Of a DNA stretch of 34,707 nucleotides, positions 7,948 through 34,707 are shown piece by piece. A program made the position numbers and the translations under genes. This stretch comes from Candidatus Uhrbacteria bacterium (GTDB lineage: Bacteria; Patescibacteriota; Patescibacteriia; UBA9934; GWF2-40-263). Under the pieces are notes generated by a model. That model saw only the letters and a program-made list of their open reading frames with translations. It did not search any database and was not told the origin of the DNA. The first letter of the stretch is position 1. The number at the start of each line of letters is the position of its first letter. The stretch is taken from NCBI GenBank assembly GCA_016235605.1, contig JACRJW010000003.1, forward strand, positions 1 to 34,707. The letters run 5' to 3'.

Positions 7948-8078
7948 GAGACCGTTGAAAAACTCGCGATCTTGCGACTTGCGGGGCCCCGCCACCTCCT
8001 CAACGTCGAGCTCAGCTCGACGTTGAGGAGGCTGGCTTCCCCGCGCATCGCAATCTCATCGAGTTTTTCAACGGTCTC
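7948..8078. repeat. Long palindromic element, copy 1 (MITE/REP-like, 131 bp)
   Basis: The ends GAGACC...GGTCTC close a long imperfect hairpin: GTTGAAAAACTCG pairs with CGAGTTTTTCAAC, then TTGCGA with TCGCAA, GCGGGG with CCCCGC, GCCA with TGGC, and an apical perfect 15-bp stem around position 8017. Related copies lie at 21910-22038 and 29401-29529. It starts two bases after the stop codon of the membrane protein (minus strand). The flanks AGTTT (7943-7947) and AGTTA (8079-8083) match at four of five bases and may be a decayed target duplication. Confidence 0.85.
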
Positions 8079-8080
8079 AG

Positions 8081-12286: not shown

Positions 12287-12322
12287 ACGACCACAAGTGC
12301 TCATATGAGCAAAAGTGGTCGT
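12287..12322. repeat. Nested inverted repeat upstream of rpsA
   Basis: Outer arms ACGACCAC (12287-12294) and GTGGTCGT (12315-12322) enclose a perfect 14-nt palindrome centred on CATATG (12298-12311). It lies upstream of the rpsA promoter and could be a binding site or a cruciform-forming repeat. Confidence 0.55.
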
Positions 12323-12729
12323 GTACGAAAAAAGCGCCGTGGAGGGAATCCAGGGCGCAGTCCAGCTGAGCTGGGCGCAGTCGCGCTCAGCGCGGCGCAA
12401 GGGAGTGGCAACCCTTGGTTCGTCTTTCGACATTCCCATGCTCGCCACTCAAGGAGTCGTGCATGAATCTGCTCGACCGAAGTCATCCTCTGAATCGCAC
12501 GACAGCCTGCCTGCCGGCAGGCAGGAATCGGGCAGTCACCTCGTCGTCTCTCGACTGTACGTTCTTCGCCCGAAATGGGTATGACATTGGTCACGTCGTC
12601 CGGAGACATCGATACAATCGTCAGACGCGCCCAGCTGAGCTCGGCGCAGCGGATGTCGTGCAGTCGGAGTTTCGATCGAAGTCAGCTCCAACTTCGCACG
12701 ACAGAGGAAATTAGCACGTGGGCGAGGAT
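12323..12729. other. Repeat-rich non-coding gap between rpsA and the toxin-antitoxin pair
   Basis: No convincing gene lies in this stretch; the open frames that cross it are not protein-like. It is made of degenerate repeat units. CCAGCTGAGCTGGGCGCAG at 12362 recurs with one change at 12631. GTCGTGC and GCACGAC arms separated by exactly 34 bases occur twice (12456-12503 and 12655-12702), sharing CGAAGTCA in the spacer and CAG after the right arm. A perfect 20-nt palindrome lies at 12506-12525. The second copy ends 65 bp before the DUF433 start. Confidence 0.6.
12506..12525. repeat. Perfect 20-nt palindrome CCTGCCTGCC/GGCAGGCAGG
   Basis: A fully self-complementary 20-mer. Palindromes of this type are, as far as I recall, widespread in CPR genomes; a genome-wide count would confirm that here. 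Confidence 0.7.
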
Positions 12730-18376: not shown

Positions 18377-19072
18377 ATGCCCAAAGAAGACCTGACAGAA
18401 CTCGAACAAACCCTTGGCGTGACGTTTCAAAACAAGGACACGCTACGCCAGGCGCTTGTTCATCGCAGTTACCTAAACGAGCATCCTGATTTTCCCCTTG
18501 GCCACAATGAGCGTCTTGAGTTTTTGGGAGACGCCGTGCTCGAGCTGGTGGTCACGGAGCATCTCTATCAAAATTACGAAAATCCCGAAGGGGAACTCAC
18601 CAACTGGCGCGCAGCGCTTGTAAACGCCGACATGCTGTCGGACTTATGCGCAAAGCTTCAGATCGAGCCGTACCTTCATCTTTCAAAAGGCGAATCAAAA
18701 GACAAAGCGTCCAAGGCGCGCAAATATATTTTAGCCAACGCGTTTGAGGCGCTCATTGGCGCCATCTATCTTGATCAAGGGTGGGAAGGAGCGAAGACGT
18801 TTGTGACTGAGCGCGTGTTATGCGAGCTTCCGCGGGTGCTCGAGCATCGGCTCTTTGTCGATCCCAAGAGTCGGTTCCAGGAGGCTTCGCAGGAACACAT
18901 GGGCATCACGCCGTCCTATAAAGTCTTGTCGGAGACTGGCCCTGATCACGAGAAAGAATTTCAAGTTGGAGTATTCCTCGGGAAAGAACAAGTGGCGATT
19001 GGCGTAGGGACCAGCAAGCAAGAAGCGCAAGTGGCCGCGGCTCAGGCGGGGATCGAAACCAAAGGTTGGTAA
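18377..19072 (+). CDS. rnc: Ribonuclease III
   Basis: A double-strand-specific endoribonuclease that processes rRNA precursors and structured mRNAs. The family signature HNERLEFLGDAVLEL (residues 43-57) holds the catalytic acidic residues, and the second acidic pair is in the KYILANAFEALIGAIYLDQG region. The C-terminal dsRNA-binding domain runs from about residue 160 (DPKSRFQEASQE) to the end, with the SKQEAQVAAAQAGIE helix. The length of 231 is normal. The start ATG follows the ACCT repeat array directly, with no ribosome-binding site. The next gene starts two bases after its stop codon. Confidence 0.97.
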   Translation: MPKEDLTELEQTLGVTFQNKDTLRQALVHRSYLNEHPDFPLGHNERLEFLGDAVLELVVTEHLYQNYENPEGELTNWRAALVNADMLSDLCAKLQIEPYLHLSKGESKDKASKARKYILANAFEALIGAIYLDQGWEGAKTFVTERVLCELPRVLEHRLFVDPKSRFQEASQEHMGITPSYKVLSETGPDHEKEFQVGVFLGKEQVAIGVGTSKQEAQVAAAQAGIETKGW

Positions 19073-20714: not shown

Positions 20715-20791
20715 TGGTGCAGGCGGAGGGACTCGAACCCCCGGCCTCATGGTTCGAAGCCATGCGCTCTATCCAGCTGAGCTACGCCTGC
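20715..20791 (-). tRNA. tRNA-Arg(TCG)
   Basis: On the minus strand the 7-bp acceptor stem GCAGGCG/CGCCTGC, a D-arm with GTAGCTCAGCTGG, the anticodon stem CATGG/CCATG with loop CTTCGAA (anticodon TCG, reading CGA/CGN), and the T-loop TTCGAGT are all present. The discriminator A is followed by an encoded CCA (20717-20715). Confidence 0.95.
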
Positions 20792-20871: not shown

Positions 20872-20946
20872 GCGTCGGTAGCTCAGGGGTAGAGCAGGAG
20901 ACTCTTAATCTCTTGGCCGTGGGTTCAAATCCCACCCGACGCACCA
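20872..20946 (+). tRNA. tRNA-Lys(CTT)
   Basis: The acceptor stem GCGTCGG/CCGACGC, D-arm GCTCAGGGGTAGAGC, anticodon loop CTCTTAA (anticodon CTT, reading AAG), T-arm GTGGG-TTCAAAT-CCCAC, discriminator A and an encoded CCA are visible. It is divergent from tRNA-Arg, with 80 bp between them. Confidence 0.95.
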
Positions 20947-21909: not shown

Positions 21910-22038
21910 GAGACCGTTGAAAAACTCGCGATCTTGCGACTTGCGGGAGCCCCGCCACCTCCTCAACGTAATTTCCACTACGTCTCGGAGGCTGGCTTCC
22001 CCGTGCGCCGCAATCTCATCGAGTTTTTCAACGGTCTC
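21910..22038. repeat. Long palindromic element, copy 2 (129 bp)
   Basis: The same GAGACC...GGTCTC ends and outer arms as copy 1. The apex differs: CCTC/GAGG plus ACGTA/TACGT in place of the perfect 15-bp stem. It lies between two minus-strand terminators, downstream of the lipoprotein gene. The palindrome extends two bases beyond the ends (CC/GG). No target duplication is visible. Confidence 0.85.
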
Positions 22039-22082
22039 GGATCGTCAAAAAAAGTCCGTCTCGTTTTCGATCGTCACAATCT

Positions 22083-28433: not shown

Positions 28434-29402
28434 ATGATGCCGACCCTGATTGTGCTTGATGGGCACATGGTGGACCACTTTGTGCAGGTCACGGACGAGA
28501 GTGTCTTTTCGACGCTTGGGGTGGATCCAGGGTGTGAGTACCTGGGAATGCATCCATGGGAGTGGGACGCGCTTGTGCAAGCTGTTGCCAAGATCGGCCT
28601 CACGCCAACGGTGCTGGTAGGCGGTTCGGGAGCAAATACCGCGCGTGGATTTACTCGGCTGGGCGGTAAAGCGGTGGTCCACGGCCAGGTGGGAAACGAT
28701 GACGCAGGACGTCGCGTGATCGAACACCTTCTCACCGACGGCTGTGATGTCCAACTGCGCACGGTGGGCGGTGCCACGGGACGGTGTTTGGTCTTCGTAC
28801 GGCCAGACGGAAAACGTGTCATGCGTTCTGACGTCGGGGTCGGTATGGACTTCAACGACGTGGACTTGGTCGAGGCCACCATAGCGCCTGGGACGTGGCT
28901 CCATCTGACGGGCTACCTGCTGGATCACGCCTTCCCCATCCATCGTGTCGCCTGGAACATCATGTATGCAGCGGTGGACCAACACGTGCCGATCTCGATG
29001 GACATCGGTTCAGGCGCCTATCTAGACGCACAAGTGATCCGGGATGTCGTCTGGCACTGTGCGACGGTCCTGTTTCTCAACGATGAAGAAGCGTTCCAGT
29101 TGGGACTCGGGTCCCCGGAGGCAGCAGCATCAGAGCTTCTTCGCTGGGCTCACAACAAGCGCGATGCGGTCGTCGTGGTGACGCAAGGCGCACGCGGCGT
29201 ACTCGTAGCCCGAGGCAACGAGGTCATCCACGTGCCAGCCGTGAGTGTGGCTGTGCGCGATACTACTGGCGCTGGCGACGCCTTTGCTTCTGGGTTCCTC
29301 TGGGCGCTCACGCAAGGTGAACCCTTGGAAGCTTGCGCGCGTCTTGGCTGTCAGCTGGCGGCACAGACCATCCAGGTGATCGGCGGAGTGCCGGAGAAGT
29401 GA
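28434..29402 (+). CDS. PfkB-family carbohydrate/nucleoside kinase
   Basis: A 322-residue ribokinase-like enzyme. The N-terminal signature region GGSGANTARGFTRLGGKAVVHGQVGNDDAG (from about residue 64) and the C-terminal signature DTTGAGDAF (276-284, catalytic Asp282) are both clear. Its relatives phosphorylate ribose, fructose, adenosine or similar; the substrate is open. The start has AGGAG six bases before ATG; a second ATG follows directly. The stop codon TGA shares its last two bases with the left end of palindromic element copy 3. Before the insertion the codon would have read TAA, so the protein was not altered. Confidence 0.9.
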   Translation: MMPTLIVLDGHMVDHFVQVTDESVFSTLGVDPGCEYLGMHPWEWDALVQAVAKIGLTPTVLVGGSGANTARGFTRLGGKAVVHGQVGNDDAGRRVIEHLLTDGCDVQLRTVGGATGRCLVFVRPDGKRVMRSDVGVGMDFNDVDLVEATIAPGTWLHLTGYLLDHAFPIHRVAWNIMYAAVDQHVPISMDIGSGAYLDAQVIRDVVWHCATVLFLNDEEAFQLGLGSPEAAASELLRWAHNKRDAVVVVTQGARGVLVARGNEVIHVPAVSVAVRDTTGAGDAFASGFLWALTQGEPLEACARLGCQLAAQTIQVIGGVPEK

Positions 29403-29529
29403 GACCGTCGCAAAACTCGCGATCTTGCGACTTGCGGGGGCCCCGCCACCTCCTCAACGTAGTTTTCACTACGTCTCAGAGGTTGGCTTCCCCGCGCATC
29501 GCAATCTCATCGAGTTTTGCAACGGTCTC
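29401..29529. repeat. Long palindromic element, copy 3 (129 bp), with target duplication
   Basis: GAGACC...GGTCTC ends. GAAGT is found exactly on both sides (29396-29400 and 29530-29534), a 5-bp direct repeat. Compared with copies 1 and 2, an A to C change in the left arm (GAAAAAC to GCAAAAC) is matched by T to G in the right arm, which keeps the helix. The apical stem is ACGTAG/CTACGT. Confidence 0.88.
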
Positions 29530-29549
29530 GAAGTAACAAGAAGATCACG

Positions 29550-32070: not shown

Positions 32071-33636
32071 TTATTTCGCGTATTCAATCACACGTGTCTC
32101 GCGGATGACCGTCACTTTCACTTCGCCTGGATAGGAGAGTTCGGCTTCAATTTTGTTGGCGACGTCCTTGGCAAGCCGGTAGGCGGTAAGATCGTCAATT
32201 TTTTCTGGCTGGACGAACACGCGCACTTCGCGGCCTGCTTGGATCGCGTAGACTTTTTCCACGCCATCGAAACTTCCAGCTGTGCGTTCCAAGTCTTCCA
32301 TGCGCTGAATGAATTGTTCCAGTGAGGCTTTGCGTGCTCCTGGTCGAGCTCCTGAGATCGCGTCAGCGGCTTTCACCACAGCGCCTTCGATGGTGCGTGG
32401 ACGATCCTCGTGGTGCGCGATCGACTGATAGCACAGCTCCTCGCTGAACCCGAATTTTTTCATGATGTTGTACCCGATTTCTGGATGCGCGCCTTGCATA
32501 TCGTGGTCAACGGCCTTGCCGATGTCGTGGAACAGTCCACCTTTTTTACACACGAACACATCCGCGCCGACTTCCTCGGCGATCATGCCGGCGATGGTTC
32601 CCACTTCAATAGAATGTTGTAGCGCGTTTTGGCCGTAGCTTGTGCGGTACTTCATGCGTCCCAAAATGGACGTGAGTTTTGGATCGATGGAGGAAACAGG
32701 AATGCCCAGCTGATAGAGCGCGTCCTCACCGGCCTTGCGCAAATCAGCCGCGATCGTTTTTTTGGCGTTGCCGATGGCTTCTTCGATGCGGGCGGGCTGG
32801 ATGCGACCGTCCTTGATGAGTTCCTCCAAGGCGCGCTTGGCGACCTGTCGGCGGATGGGGGAGAAGCCCGAGATGGTGATCATGTTGGGCGTGTCGTCCA
32901 CGATAATTTCCGTTCCGGTTTGCAGTTCGATCGCCTTGATGTTGCGGCCTTCTTTGCCGATGATGCGGCCTTTCATTTCGTCGTTGGGAAGTTCGACCTG
33001 AGAGGTCGTGGTGTCGGTGCAGACGGATGAGGCAAAACGCGTCATGGCAAGGGACAAAATTTTTCGTCCCTTCACTTCGAGTTCTTCTTCATTCAACTGT
33101 TCGAGTTTGCGCAGGCGGCTCATGAGCGCTTCCTGCGCATCTGTCTCGATTTCTTTCAACAATTTTTCTTCGGCTTGCTGCCGTGTGAGACCGGCGACTT
33201 CCTGGAGTTTTGTGACCTGAGCATTTTTTAGTTCGGTGATCTGAGCCTTTACGACCTCAATTTCTTTTGCTCGGTCCTCGAGCTTAGATTTTTTCTCCTC
33301 GATCTCTAAGAGCTTCTCATCAAACAGGGTTTCGCGTTTTTCCAGACGACGTTGCTGGTCTTGCAGGTCGCGGTGGCGGGACTGCTCTTCTTGTTTTGCT
33401 TCTTCGATGATCTTGAGGGATTTTTCTTTGGCCTGAATGAGGAGTTCTTGCTCTTGATTTTTTGCCGCTTGCAACAGCTCCTGCTGTTTTTCGCGGGCGT
33501 CGGCGAGCATCTTTTCAACTTTTGATTCTGCGTCGCCTGCCATGCGCTTGGCCATGGCTTTGCGCAGGGCATAGCCGATCGCTAAACCCACGATGAGGGT
33601 CAGCGCGGAGGCGATCAGGGTAAATGGTGTGAACAT
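32071..33636 (-). CDS. rny: Ribonuclease Y
   Basis: A membrane-anchored endoribonuclease that starts mRNA decay in many bacteria. Order of parts: an N-terminal membrane helix (residues 2-23), a long Lys/Glu/Gln-rich coiled coil (about 30-190), a KH RNA-binding domain with GRIIGKEGRN (about 223-232), and an HD domain with HSIEVG and GLFHDIGKAVDHD (His-Asp at 370-371). The length of 521 is typical. I chose ATG at 33636; a GTG four codons upstream lacks a ribosome-binding site, while GAGAAG lies four bases before the ATG. This ribosome-binding site can pair with CTTCTC just upstream, within a larger structured leader. Confidence 0.96.
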   Translation of the reverse strand: MFTPFTLIASALTLIVGLAIGYALRKAMAKRMAGDAESKVEKMLADAREKQQELLQAAKNQEQELLIQAKEKSLKIIEEAKQEEQSRHRDLQDQQRRLEKRETLFDEKLLEIEEKKSKLEDRAKEIEVVKAQITELKNAQVTKLQEVAGLTRQQAEEKLLKEIETDAQEALMSRLRKLEQLNEEELEVKGRKILSLAMTRFASSVCTDTTTSQVELPNDEMKGRIIGKEGRNIKAIELQTGTEIIVDDTPNMITISGFSPIRRQVAKRALEELIKDGRIQPARIEEAIGNAKKTIAADLRKAGEDALYQLGIPVSSIDPKLTSILGRMKYRTSYGQNALQHSIEVGTIAGMIAEEVGADVFVCKKGGLFHDIGKAVDHDMQGAHPEIGYNIMKKFGFSEELCYQSIAHHEDRPRTIEGAVVKAADAISGARPGARKASLEQFIQRMEDLERTAGSFDGVEKVYAIQAGREVRVFVQPEKIDDLTAYRLAKDVANKIEAELSYPGEVKVTVIRETRVIEYAK

Positions 33637-33640
33637 AAAA

Positions 33641-33797
33641 CTTCTCACTTATGGAGAAGCTCACGACACGACCAAGATGTGGAAAAACGGATTACAACAA
33701 CAAACCTGCCGGTTGGCGGGTGATTGGTTGATATGCAAGCGATAGGAAAGCAAATGGTTGCATAAGGATCCTTCCACGTGATACTCGGGTGAGCTTC
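33641..33797 (-). ncRNA. Candidate structured leader RNA / riboswitch upstream of rny
   Basis: Reading the minus strand, nested helices can form: P1 GAAGCTCAC (33797-33789) with GTGAGCTTC (33664-33656); CCGAG with CTTGG directly inside (33788-33784, 33676-33672); GTGGAA with TTCCAC (33777-33772, 33684-33679); GGAT with ATCC (33771-33768, 33692-33689). They enclose two hairpins, TATGCAA/TTGCATA (33764-33758, 33738-33732) and ACCCGCC-AACC-GGCAGGT (33721-33704, one mismatch). After P1, CTTCTC (33659-33654) can pair with the rny ribosome-binding site GAGAAG (33646-33641). CTTC is shared by P1 and by that hairpin, so the two folds exclude each other. I know of no described RNA that it matches. Confidence 0.5.
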
Positions 33798-33818: not shown

Positions 33819-34625
33819 TTACACGCTCAGGAGGTTAGCATCGGGAAGTGTATTTGTCAAAAGACGTGAAAGAAGCTCAGAAACAGGGATGAGATCTGTC
33901 GTTTGGAGTGTTGTGAGAGGGTGAGCCTCTTGAATCGAAAACGGTCCGATCGAGGTACGACGGAGTTCTAGGGCGTAGCCGCCACCGCCCAGTGCCTTGC
34001 CTAGGTCACGAGCAATGGAACGAATGTAGGTGCCGCTTGAGCACGAAATTTTTGCTTCCAACTTCATCATTGGTCCTATTGGTCCCATAGGGCTTATTTC
34101 AAAACTGTGGATTGTGACCAATCGCGGCTTCGCCTCCATTGGTTTTCCCTTGCGTGCTTGCTCGTACATTTTTTTGCCGCCGATTTTGATCGCCGAGTAC
34201 GTCGGAGGGATTTGTTGTATGTCGCCGAGGAAAGGTTGGAGGTAATAGGTGATAGGTTGTAGGTCGGATCGAATAGGAGCCGGAGAGATCACACCGGTTC
34301 GATCATCCGTGTCCGACGACGCTCCCAGCACAAACACGGCCTCGTAGGTTTTATCGAGCCCAACCAGTTTTTCCATTTCCCGCGTGGCAACGCGTCCAAC
34401 GCCAACAATAAGCAACCCCGTTGCAAACGGATCCAGCGTCCCGGCATGGCCAACGCGCCGCTCACCCGTCAGCCGCCGCACTCGGTCGACCACATCGTGG
34501 CTGGTTATGCCTGCAGGTTTGTCGATAAGCAGAAAGCCGTGTTTTGTAGCAGTTTCCTGGTGGAGTTCCGCAGTAGATACTAATAAACGGTTACCGTAGA
34601 GCTTCCCGTGAAGCTGGTGACTCAT
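33819..34625 (-). CDS. truB: tRNA pseudouridine-55 synthase TruB
   Basis: TruB makes pseudouridine 55 in the T-loop of tRNAs. GFLLIDKPAGITSHDVV, GHAGTLDPFATGLLIVGVG (catalytic Asp in GTLDP), YEAVFVLGASSDTDDRTG, and SGTYIRSIARDLG are the family motifs. At 268 residues it lacks a full PUA domain. I chose ATG at 34625; this leaves about 29 extra N-terminal residues and a 35-base overlap with the upstream gene, and no other ATG, GTG or TTG fits better. Two odd inserts occur: RSDLQPITYYLQPF (about residues 120-131) and SPMGPIGPMM (about 177-186). Both are encoded by low-complexity repeats. It is followed by the rny leader on the same strand. Confidence 0.95.
   Translation of the reverse strand: MSHQLHGKLYGNRLLVSTAELHQETATKHGFLLIDKPAGITSHDVVDRVRRLTGERRVGHAGTLDPFATGLLIVGVGRVATREMEKLVGLDKTYEAVFVLGASSDTDDRTGVISPAPIRSDLQPITYYLQPFLGDIQQIPPTYSAIKIGGKKMYEQARKGKPMEAKPRLVTIHSFEISPMGPIGPMMKLEAKISCSSGTYIRSIARDLGKALGGGGYALELRRTSIGPFSIQEAHPLTTLQTTDLIPVSELLSRLLTNTLPDANLLSV
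34069..34092. repeat. Tandem GGTCCTATT-type repeat inside truB
   Basis: ATTGGTCCTATTGGTCCCAT, two units of about 9 bases, encoding the Pro-Ile-Gly-Pro-Met run in TruB, a loop insertion compared with E. coli TruB. Confidence 0.55.
34233..34265 (-). repeat. ACCTA-type repeat array inside truB
   Basis: On the coding strand, ACCTACAACCTATCACCTAT and on. The same motif family as at 18341-18376 (nusB-rnc). It encodes the LQPITYYLQP segment of TruB. Confidence 0.65.
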
Positions 34626-34707
34626 ATCGCTTTTGGATAGCAAACACCACTTTCAGCCGTCGGTCAATTTCCCGCTTGAGAAGGAGTGGATTGAGTTTAT
34701 GGTGTAT
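34591..34707 (-). CDS. C-terminal 38 codons of an unidentified gene (partial)
   Basis: A minus-strand frame is open from the window edge to TAA at 34593-34591: IHHKLNPLLLKREIDRRLKV, then VFAIQKRYESPASREALR. It is charged and helical and reads like a real protein end. It overlaps the truB start by 35 bases, which suggests translational coupling. It does not look like the end of RbfA, the usual truB neighbour. The identity is unknown because most of the gene is outside the window. Confidence 0.5.
   Translation of the reverse strand: MHHKLNPLLLKREIDRRLKVVFAIQKRYESPASREALR

Follow-up and report, generated by a model that had tools for sequence, protein, structure and literature searches.

A candidate uORF-governed translational switch in the leader of ribonuclease Y mRNA in Patescibacteria

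In many bacteria mRNA decay is initiated by ribonuclease Y (RNase Y). Does the RNA leading into its gene, rny, control it in Patescibacteria? We considered this question for a 34,707-nt stretch of DNA from a Candidatus Uhrbacteria bacterium (hereafter the window) and for rny leaders elsewhere in the phylum and beyond. A preliminary description of the window had placed nested helices in the truB-rny gap, at 33641-33797 on the minus strand, and had read them as a riboswitch-like leader. The helices are present in the sequence where they were placed, among the following features.

33819-34643, minus strand: truB, the upstream neighbour (TIGR00431), start codon uncertain
33818-33637, minus strand: the truB-rny gap, site of the structured leader
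33789-33797, minus strand: P1 5' arm, GAAGCUCAC, from the fold; partner 33656-33664; partner-swap z -7.9 in the family
33768-33777, minus strand: P3 5' arm, GUGGAAGGAU, from the fold; contains AAGGA, a putative Shine-Dalgarno sequence for the upstream open reading frame (uORF), anti-SD duplex -6.1 kcal/mol
33732-33764, minus strand: hairpin UAUGCAA..UUGCAUA at the uORF start, from the MFE fold
33692-33763, minus strand: uORF of 23 codons, MQPFAFLSLAYQPITRQPAGLLL and stop; 14 of the 17 family genera keep its frame and length
33704-33721, minus strand: hairpin P4 (ACC.GCC/GGC.GGU), shortly 5' of the uORF stop, from the fold and leader comparison
33679-33692, minus strand: P3 3' arm, AUCCGUUUUUCCAC, from the fold; immediately 3' of the uORF stop
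33656-33664, minus strand: P1 3' arm, GUGAGCUUC, from the fold; overlaps the CUUCUC arm by four bases
33654-33659, minus strand: CUUCUC, 5' arm of the start-region hairpin, common to P1; covariation in alignment A3
33641-33646, minus strand: GAGAAG, four bases from the ATG; 3' arm of the start-region hairpin, with UUUU and AUG next
33636-33634, minus strand: rny ATG, read in the sequence
32071-33636, minus strand: rny, ribonuclease Y, the controlled gene (TIGR03319 equivalog, 579.9 bits against a cut-off of 454)
18377-19072: RNase III gene

P1 is formed by GAAGCTCAC (33797-33789) with GTGAGCTTC (33664-33656) and encloses the inner helices and two hairpins. GGAC immediately 5' of its 5' arm can lengthen P1 onto the UCC of the start-region hairpin arm. 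As had been described, the CTTC of P1 is common to CTTCTC (33659-33654), which can pair with GAGAAG (33646-33641). Missing from that description was the 23-codon uORF, which sits in the loop between the P1 arms with its own AAGGA upstream. The minus-strand segment 33641-33797 folds at -42.9 kcal/mol (z -2.6), and none of 200 dinucleotide shuffles was equally stable; for the whole leader the z was -2.8, with 2/200 shuffles equally stable. The plus strand scores better still (z -3.85), so that fold alone leaves the strand unsettled. The hairpin at the uORF start is also found by sequence in L003 and L004, a comparison within the genus. At the position of P4, where 64% of cells are paired in alignment A1, other genera have CCUUC/GAAGG, CUGUC/GACAG or CCCCG/CGGGG.

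The P4 hairpin within the uORF (CCCGCCAACCGGCAGG) looks like a degenerate copy of a GC-rich palindromic CPR repeat. Around 12300-12600 of the window, short ORFs with IPACRQAG and LPAGRQESGSH lie on opposite strands, peptides that we take to be the usual translation of such a GC-rich palindromic repeat in CPR genomes. A 130-nt repeat occurs in three dispersed copies (7950-8079, 21910-22039 and 29401-29530; 62-92% identity to the middle copy). Two tRNA genes lie on opposite strands about 80 nt apart (20718-20791, minus; 20872-20943, plus), and the ORFs called across them (RRRDSNPRPHGSK, RRVGFEPTAKRLRVSCSTPELPT) appear spurious. Matches to the 16S rRNA gene are partial and separated, with other sequence lying between them (G000 C109:235-1837 and C1:1087-1171; L174-L176), as is seen where rRNA genes carry intervening sequences.

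Is P1 kept where the sequence has changed? Because alignment A1 is too invariant for column covariation at P1, we utilized a partner-swap test, in which the duplex energy between the 50 nt before the uORF and the last 60 nt before rny is compared for native and swapped partners. One leader per genus was taken for 58 genera, the uORF was picked without regard to P1, and 5000 permutations were run. Native partners pair better in the family (17 genera; z -7.9, 0/5000), in other families of the order (13 genera; z -4.25, 0/5000), in other families of the class (11 genera; z -3.3, 13/5000) and in the rest of the phylum (17 genera; z -4.55, 0/5000). Over all 58 genera the z is -13.3 (0/5000), with independence among genera limited by common descent. 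Controls with uORF segments gave z from -1.0 to +1.5 in family, order and class, and from -2.2 to +2.6 in the phylum set. For the other families of the class, whose P1 5' arm is shifted upstream, pairing is seen as well in the 50 nt ahead of the test segment (z -5.1). Both points on which the preliminary description had staked its leader, stability beyond shuffled sequence and helices kept in homologous rny leaders, therefore hold. Examples of P1 arms are AGAAGUUCAAGCUG/UGGUUUGAACUUCU (L017), GAAGCCG/CGGCUUC (L012), UCUCUUGUCUUU/GAAGACAAGAGG (L071) and GGAGAUCAAGGUG/UACUUUGAUCUCC (L168). RNAalifold on A1 returned the start hairpin only and did not recover P1. The counts exclude an initial MAFFT alignment of all family leaders, in which the P1 5' arms were misplaced.

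Several leaders carry insertions or repeats alongside a persisting P1 pairing: about 120 nt between the uORF stop and the P1 3' arm in L015, about 30 nt at the uORF end in L021, a palindromic repeat upstream of the leader in L006 and the 33-nt in-frame uORF insertion of L022.

The strand evidence had been called mixed. The partner-swap test and the uORF favour the rny sense strand. The sense strand beats the antisense in every group (z -13.3 versus -10.7 for all genera), as expected from the G-U pairs available in rny-strand RNA. A functionless chance fold or palindromic repeat in the intergenic gap would agree with the modest single-sequence z of -2.6 to -2.8. It does not account for partner-specific pairing over 58 genera with 0/5000 permutations, nor for one copy per genome. 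We find it scarcely credible and, from these sequence comparisons, regard it as already refuted.

The uORF is placed alike in nearly every related leader, with its ATG at about -127 and its stop at about -55, counted from the rny ATG. Counting frames of 15-32 codons that end 30-95 nt 5' of rny, with the expectation taken from shuffled leaders, we found a uORF in 32/36 family leaders (6.7 expected), in 19 of 28 from other families of the order (6.9), in 10 of 20 from other families of the class (4.1) and in 17 of 40 from the rest of the phylum (9.0); in these counts rny start codons and the choice among overlapping uORFs were settled by rule or by eye, and the order-level leaders are partly short. 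Of the 17 family genera, 14 have a uORF of 22-25 codons, which a shuffled leader is expected to show in 4% of cases; since genera share ancestry, the binomial p of 1.6e-17 serves only as a guide. In L022, 33 extra nucleotides inside the uORF leave the frame intact. Peptide conservation was sought and none was seen, codon positions 1, 2 and 3 changing 51, 48 and 56 times (p 0.73). Because codon positions change equally, the peptide is unconstrained and the coding case is one of frame and length. From this pattern we take it that translation of the uORF would matter and its product would not. The exception is the distant clade f71, where the uORF peptide starts F[V/L]SN-like.

Two other readings of this segment were set aside. 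The frame brings a start codon of its own, and a tmRNA-like reading was dropped for that reason. TTGTTGTAAT, located at the uORF stop, could be read as an extended -10 promoter; a sigma-70 scan found no site in the leader, and the reading is disfavoured because arms pairing across it need one spanning transcript.

The start-region hairpin is the second conserved element in the family. The P1 3' arm has bases in common with the 5' arm of this hairpin, which reaches to within four to five bases of the start codon. In alignment A3 (26 leaders), 90.5% of its cells are paired, versus 59.5% or less when the pairing is slid. Eight cells carry double changes, C-G to U-A and G-C to A-U, and none of 500 shuffles reached either the paired percentage or the double-change count. 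In L033, GCGUUUCUC/GAGAAACGC replaces CUUCUC/GAGAAG. The mean z in the family is -2.1, with 12/17 at p 0.05 or below. The hairpin was not significant in the order, class and phylum groups as wholes, where P1 alone is conserved. As in the preliminary description, P1 and the start-region hairpin are mutually exclusive by their overlap; computationally, both are conserved in the family. Mutually exclusive helices with one over the downstream start occur in the family and in f71 and are not general in the other groups. That description had also taken GAGAAG for the ribosome-binding site. It does lie four bases before the ATG, but it is not canonical and makes a poor Shine-Dalgarno sequence against the 16S rRNA 3' end, GGATCACCTCCTTTTTAG, which has the canonical anti-SD. 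The hairpin would therefore mask the start region and not a Shine-Dalgarno sequence, and for the family 'start region' is the safer term.

In f71, rny adjoins a divergently oriented gene that reads by eye like superoxide dismutase, not truB. Its P1 is GGUUGAUUGCAUCUU/AAGAUGCAGCCAAC (partner-swap z -3.8, 1/5000), its uORF has 22-26 codons in most genera, and the layout is that of the window's family. The hairpin, CCAAC/GUUGG, shares its 5' arm with P1 and covers a canonical Shine-Dalgarno sequence (GGAAAGG or GGAG), which makes this clade the clearest case for a translational switch. L197 has UCGUCU/AGACGA instead of GCAUCU/AGAUGC, with P1 kept. L200 has a perfect 14-bp stem, AGACGCCAAACGCC/GGCGUUUGGCGUCU, inside which no uORF reaches 12 codons.

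How far does the element extend? The exact CUUCUC/GAGAAG-type hairpin pattern occurs once each in 17 of 43 family genomes and not at all in a reversed control; its sites are always at rny, save in one broken assembly, where the contig end fits rny. With a covariance model built on ten leaders, each genome has a single strong match, which lies at rny; two of the leaders matched had not gone into the model. A mobile or multicopy element was considered and rejected, as there is a single strong copy per genome, always at rny. Nothing convincing was found by this model in other families; since the model from A1 does not reach them, the case for the element outside the family is one of layout and pairing, not of sequence similarity. 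Synteny with truB is kept within the family, and elsewhere the element does not depend on it. Several Patescibacteria lack it, for example those with a ClpP-like gene upstream of rny. Among rny leaders sampled outside the CPR (Bacillota, a spirochaete and others; 12 loci, 11 readable) no conserved layout was seen by eye; most have canonical Shine-Dalgarno sequences, and those from Bacillota showed neither uORF nor P1. That no described class with this layout is known agrees with Rfam, where nothing matched at gathering score and, up to E = 10, only a chance 13-nt hit inside truB appeared. It is thus very probable that rny is preceded by a conserved structured leader enclosing a uORF. The original observation is real, and larger than first described.

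We put at roughly 55% the reading that this leader acts in cis as a translational switch in the mRNA of RNase Y, ruled by whether the uORF is occupied; the uORF would probably be the sensor. What we infer here is that the uORF is translated, which way control runs and what physiological signal drives it. With no ribosome on the uORF, its flanks would pair as P1 and the inner helices, and P1 would capture the 5' half of the start-region hairpin, leaving rny open for translation. A ribosome at the uORF start would unpair the upstream arms, so that the local hairpin could form and hide the rny start. The uORF would then sense ease of ribosome loading and not a particular peptide, so that a fall in translation initiation would bring RNase Y up.

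This direction, uORF occupied and rny closed, is the one we lean towards on modelling, by partition-function folding with a ribosome footprint blocked at the uORF start. In f71 the footprint raises the hairpin probability from 0.04 to 0.61 and lowers P1 from 0.97 to 0.19. In the window's family the hairpin goes from 0.34 to 0.55 and P1 from 0.78 to 0.46. A modelled ribosome at the uORF stop has a smaller effect than one at the start. For the window sequence itself the switch is weak in silico, because P1 stays at 0.99 with the ribosome modelled at the uORF start; either other steps help there (co-transcriptional folding, a larger footprint, helicases) or this leader is biased to the open state.

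Could the same architecture serve another purpose? P1/P3 might be an RNase III processing stem, or the leader might present an RNase Y site, and the uORF would do no more than shield the leader during its own translation. The stem is a long one, the window encodes RNase III, and a study of B. subtilis reports that RNase Y cleaves its own 5' UTR with decay linked to ribosome occupancy (PMC10303841). By analogy with that study, the leader may undergo self-cleavage (PMC10303841). Autoregulation by cleavage as the explanation of the element, however, leaves the overlap of the P1 3' arm with the start hairpin in two distant clades unexplained, and the kept uORF length as well, and we consider it unlikely. 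Transcription attenuation, with the hairpin and UUUU as terminator, P1 as antiterminator and the uORF as a classical leader peptide, draws on the family hairpin being followed by U3-U5; the last 34 nt there have a mean MFE of -10.2 kcal/mol. But the U run is short and ends at the start codon, a consensus terminator scan does not include the hairpin, the f71 hairpin holds the Shine-Dalgarno sequence and has no U tract, and order-level leaders lack such a hairpin. It strikes us as quite doubtful.

The original proposal, a ligand-binding translational riboswitch in which the ORF would be incidental, has in its favour that P1 and the expression platform resemble riboswitch logic. No aptamer or junction sequence is conserved between families, however, loop sizes differ, Rfam offers no matching class, and an open frame occupies the loop at a frequency far above chance. 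With no sign of a ligand found, the term 'riboswitch' is unsupported, and we hold this explanation to be very improbable.

We compared the translational switch with known systems. ermC-type translation attenuators combine a uORF with mutually exclusive helices over a downstream start and depend on stalling at defined codons. The rny leader is alike in its uORF and exclusive helices and differs in that its peptide sequence is not conserved; codon-position counts gave no conserved stalling peptide or codons, a feature that defines the ermC subtype only. Escherichia coli RNase E is autoregulated through the rne 5' UTR, where the enzyme itself binds a stem-loop, and to our knowledge that leader has no uORF. 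There too leader RNA structure controls a decay-initiating endonuclease, albeit a different enzyme. In the toiL uORF of topAI-yjhQ in E. coli, a stem represses and a stalled ribosome activates (PMC12121999). Like toiL, and as in the toiL/ermC kind of switch generally, the rny leader has a short upstream ORF, here with a conserved frame; as in toiL, it lies in a long-range stem, and the position of the uORF ribosome would decide the pairing of the downstream ribosome-binding site (PMC12121999). In contrast to toiL, P1 is predicted to activate and the uORF ribosome to repress, the gene is another, there is no homology and the taxonomic spread is far wider. The B. subtilis RNase Y system concerns the same gene, with 5' UTR control tied to ribosome occupancy at the start site and a stem noted near the Shine-Dalgarno sequence; it differs in acting by mRNA cleavage, and the available part of that account mentions neither a uORF nor P1 (PMC10303841).

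Our literature search on leader RNAs, uORFs and structured RNAs of RNase Y returned only the B. subtilis autoregulation and unrelated uORF switches, and none of the papers covered joined Patescibacteria with RNase Y. Taken together, the leader would work like a uORF-controlled translational switch, and no earlier description for RNase Y in Patescibacteria was found (subscription journals and preprints lay outside the search). The layout is unlike known uORF switches, with a predicted sign opposite to toiL-topAI and a peptide that varies while frame and length are kept. More tentatively, it may represent an ancient Patescibacteria-wide system coupling the rate of mRNA decay to translation, with RNase Y on when the sensor uORF is unloaded. 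Gene control is almost unexplored in the Patescibacteria (CPR), whose genomes are small and most of whose cells are uncultured. The element is concrete enough for a test in a heterologous host, and a cis-acting RNA switch kept in distant families at their main enzyme of mRNA decay would show them to regulate decay through translation.
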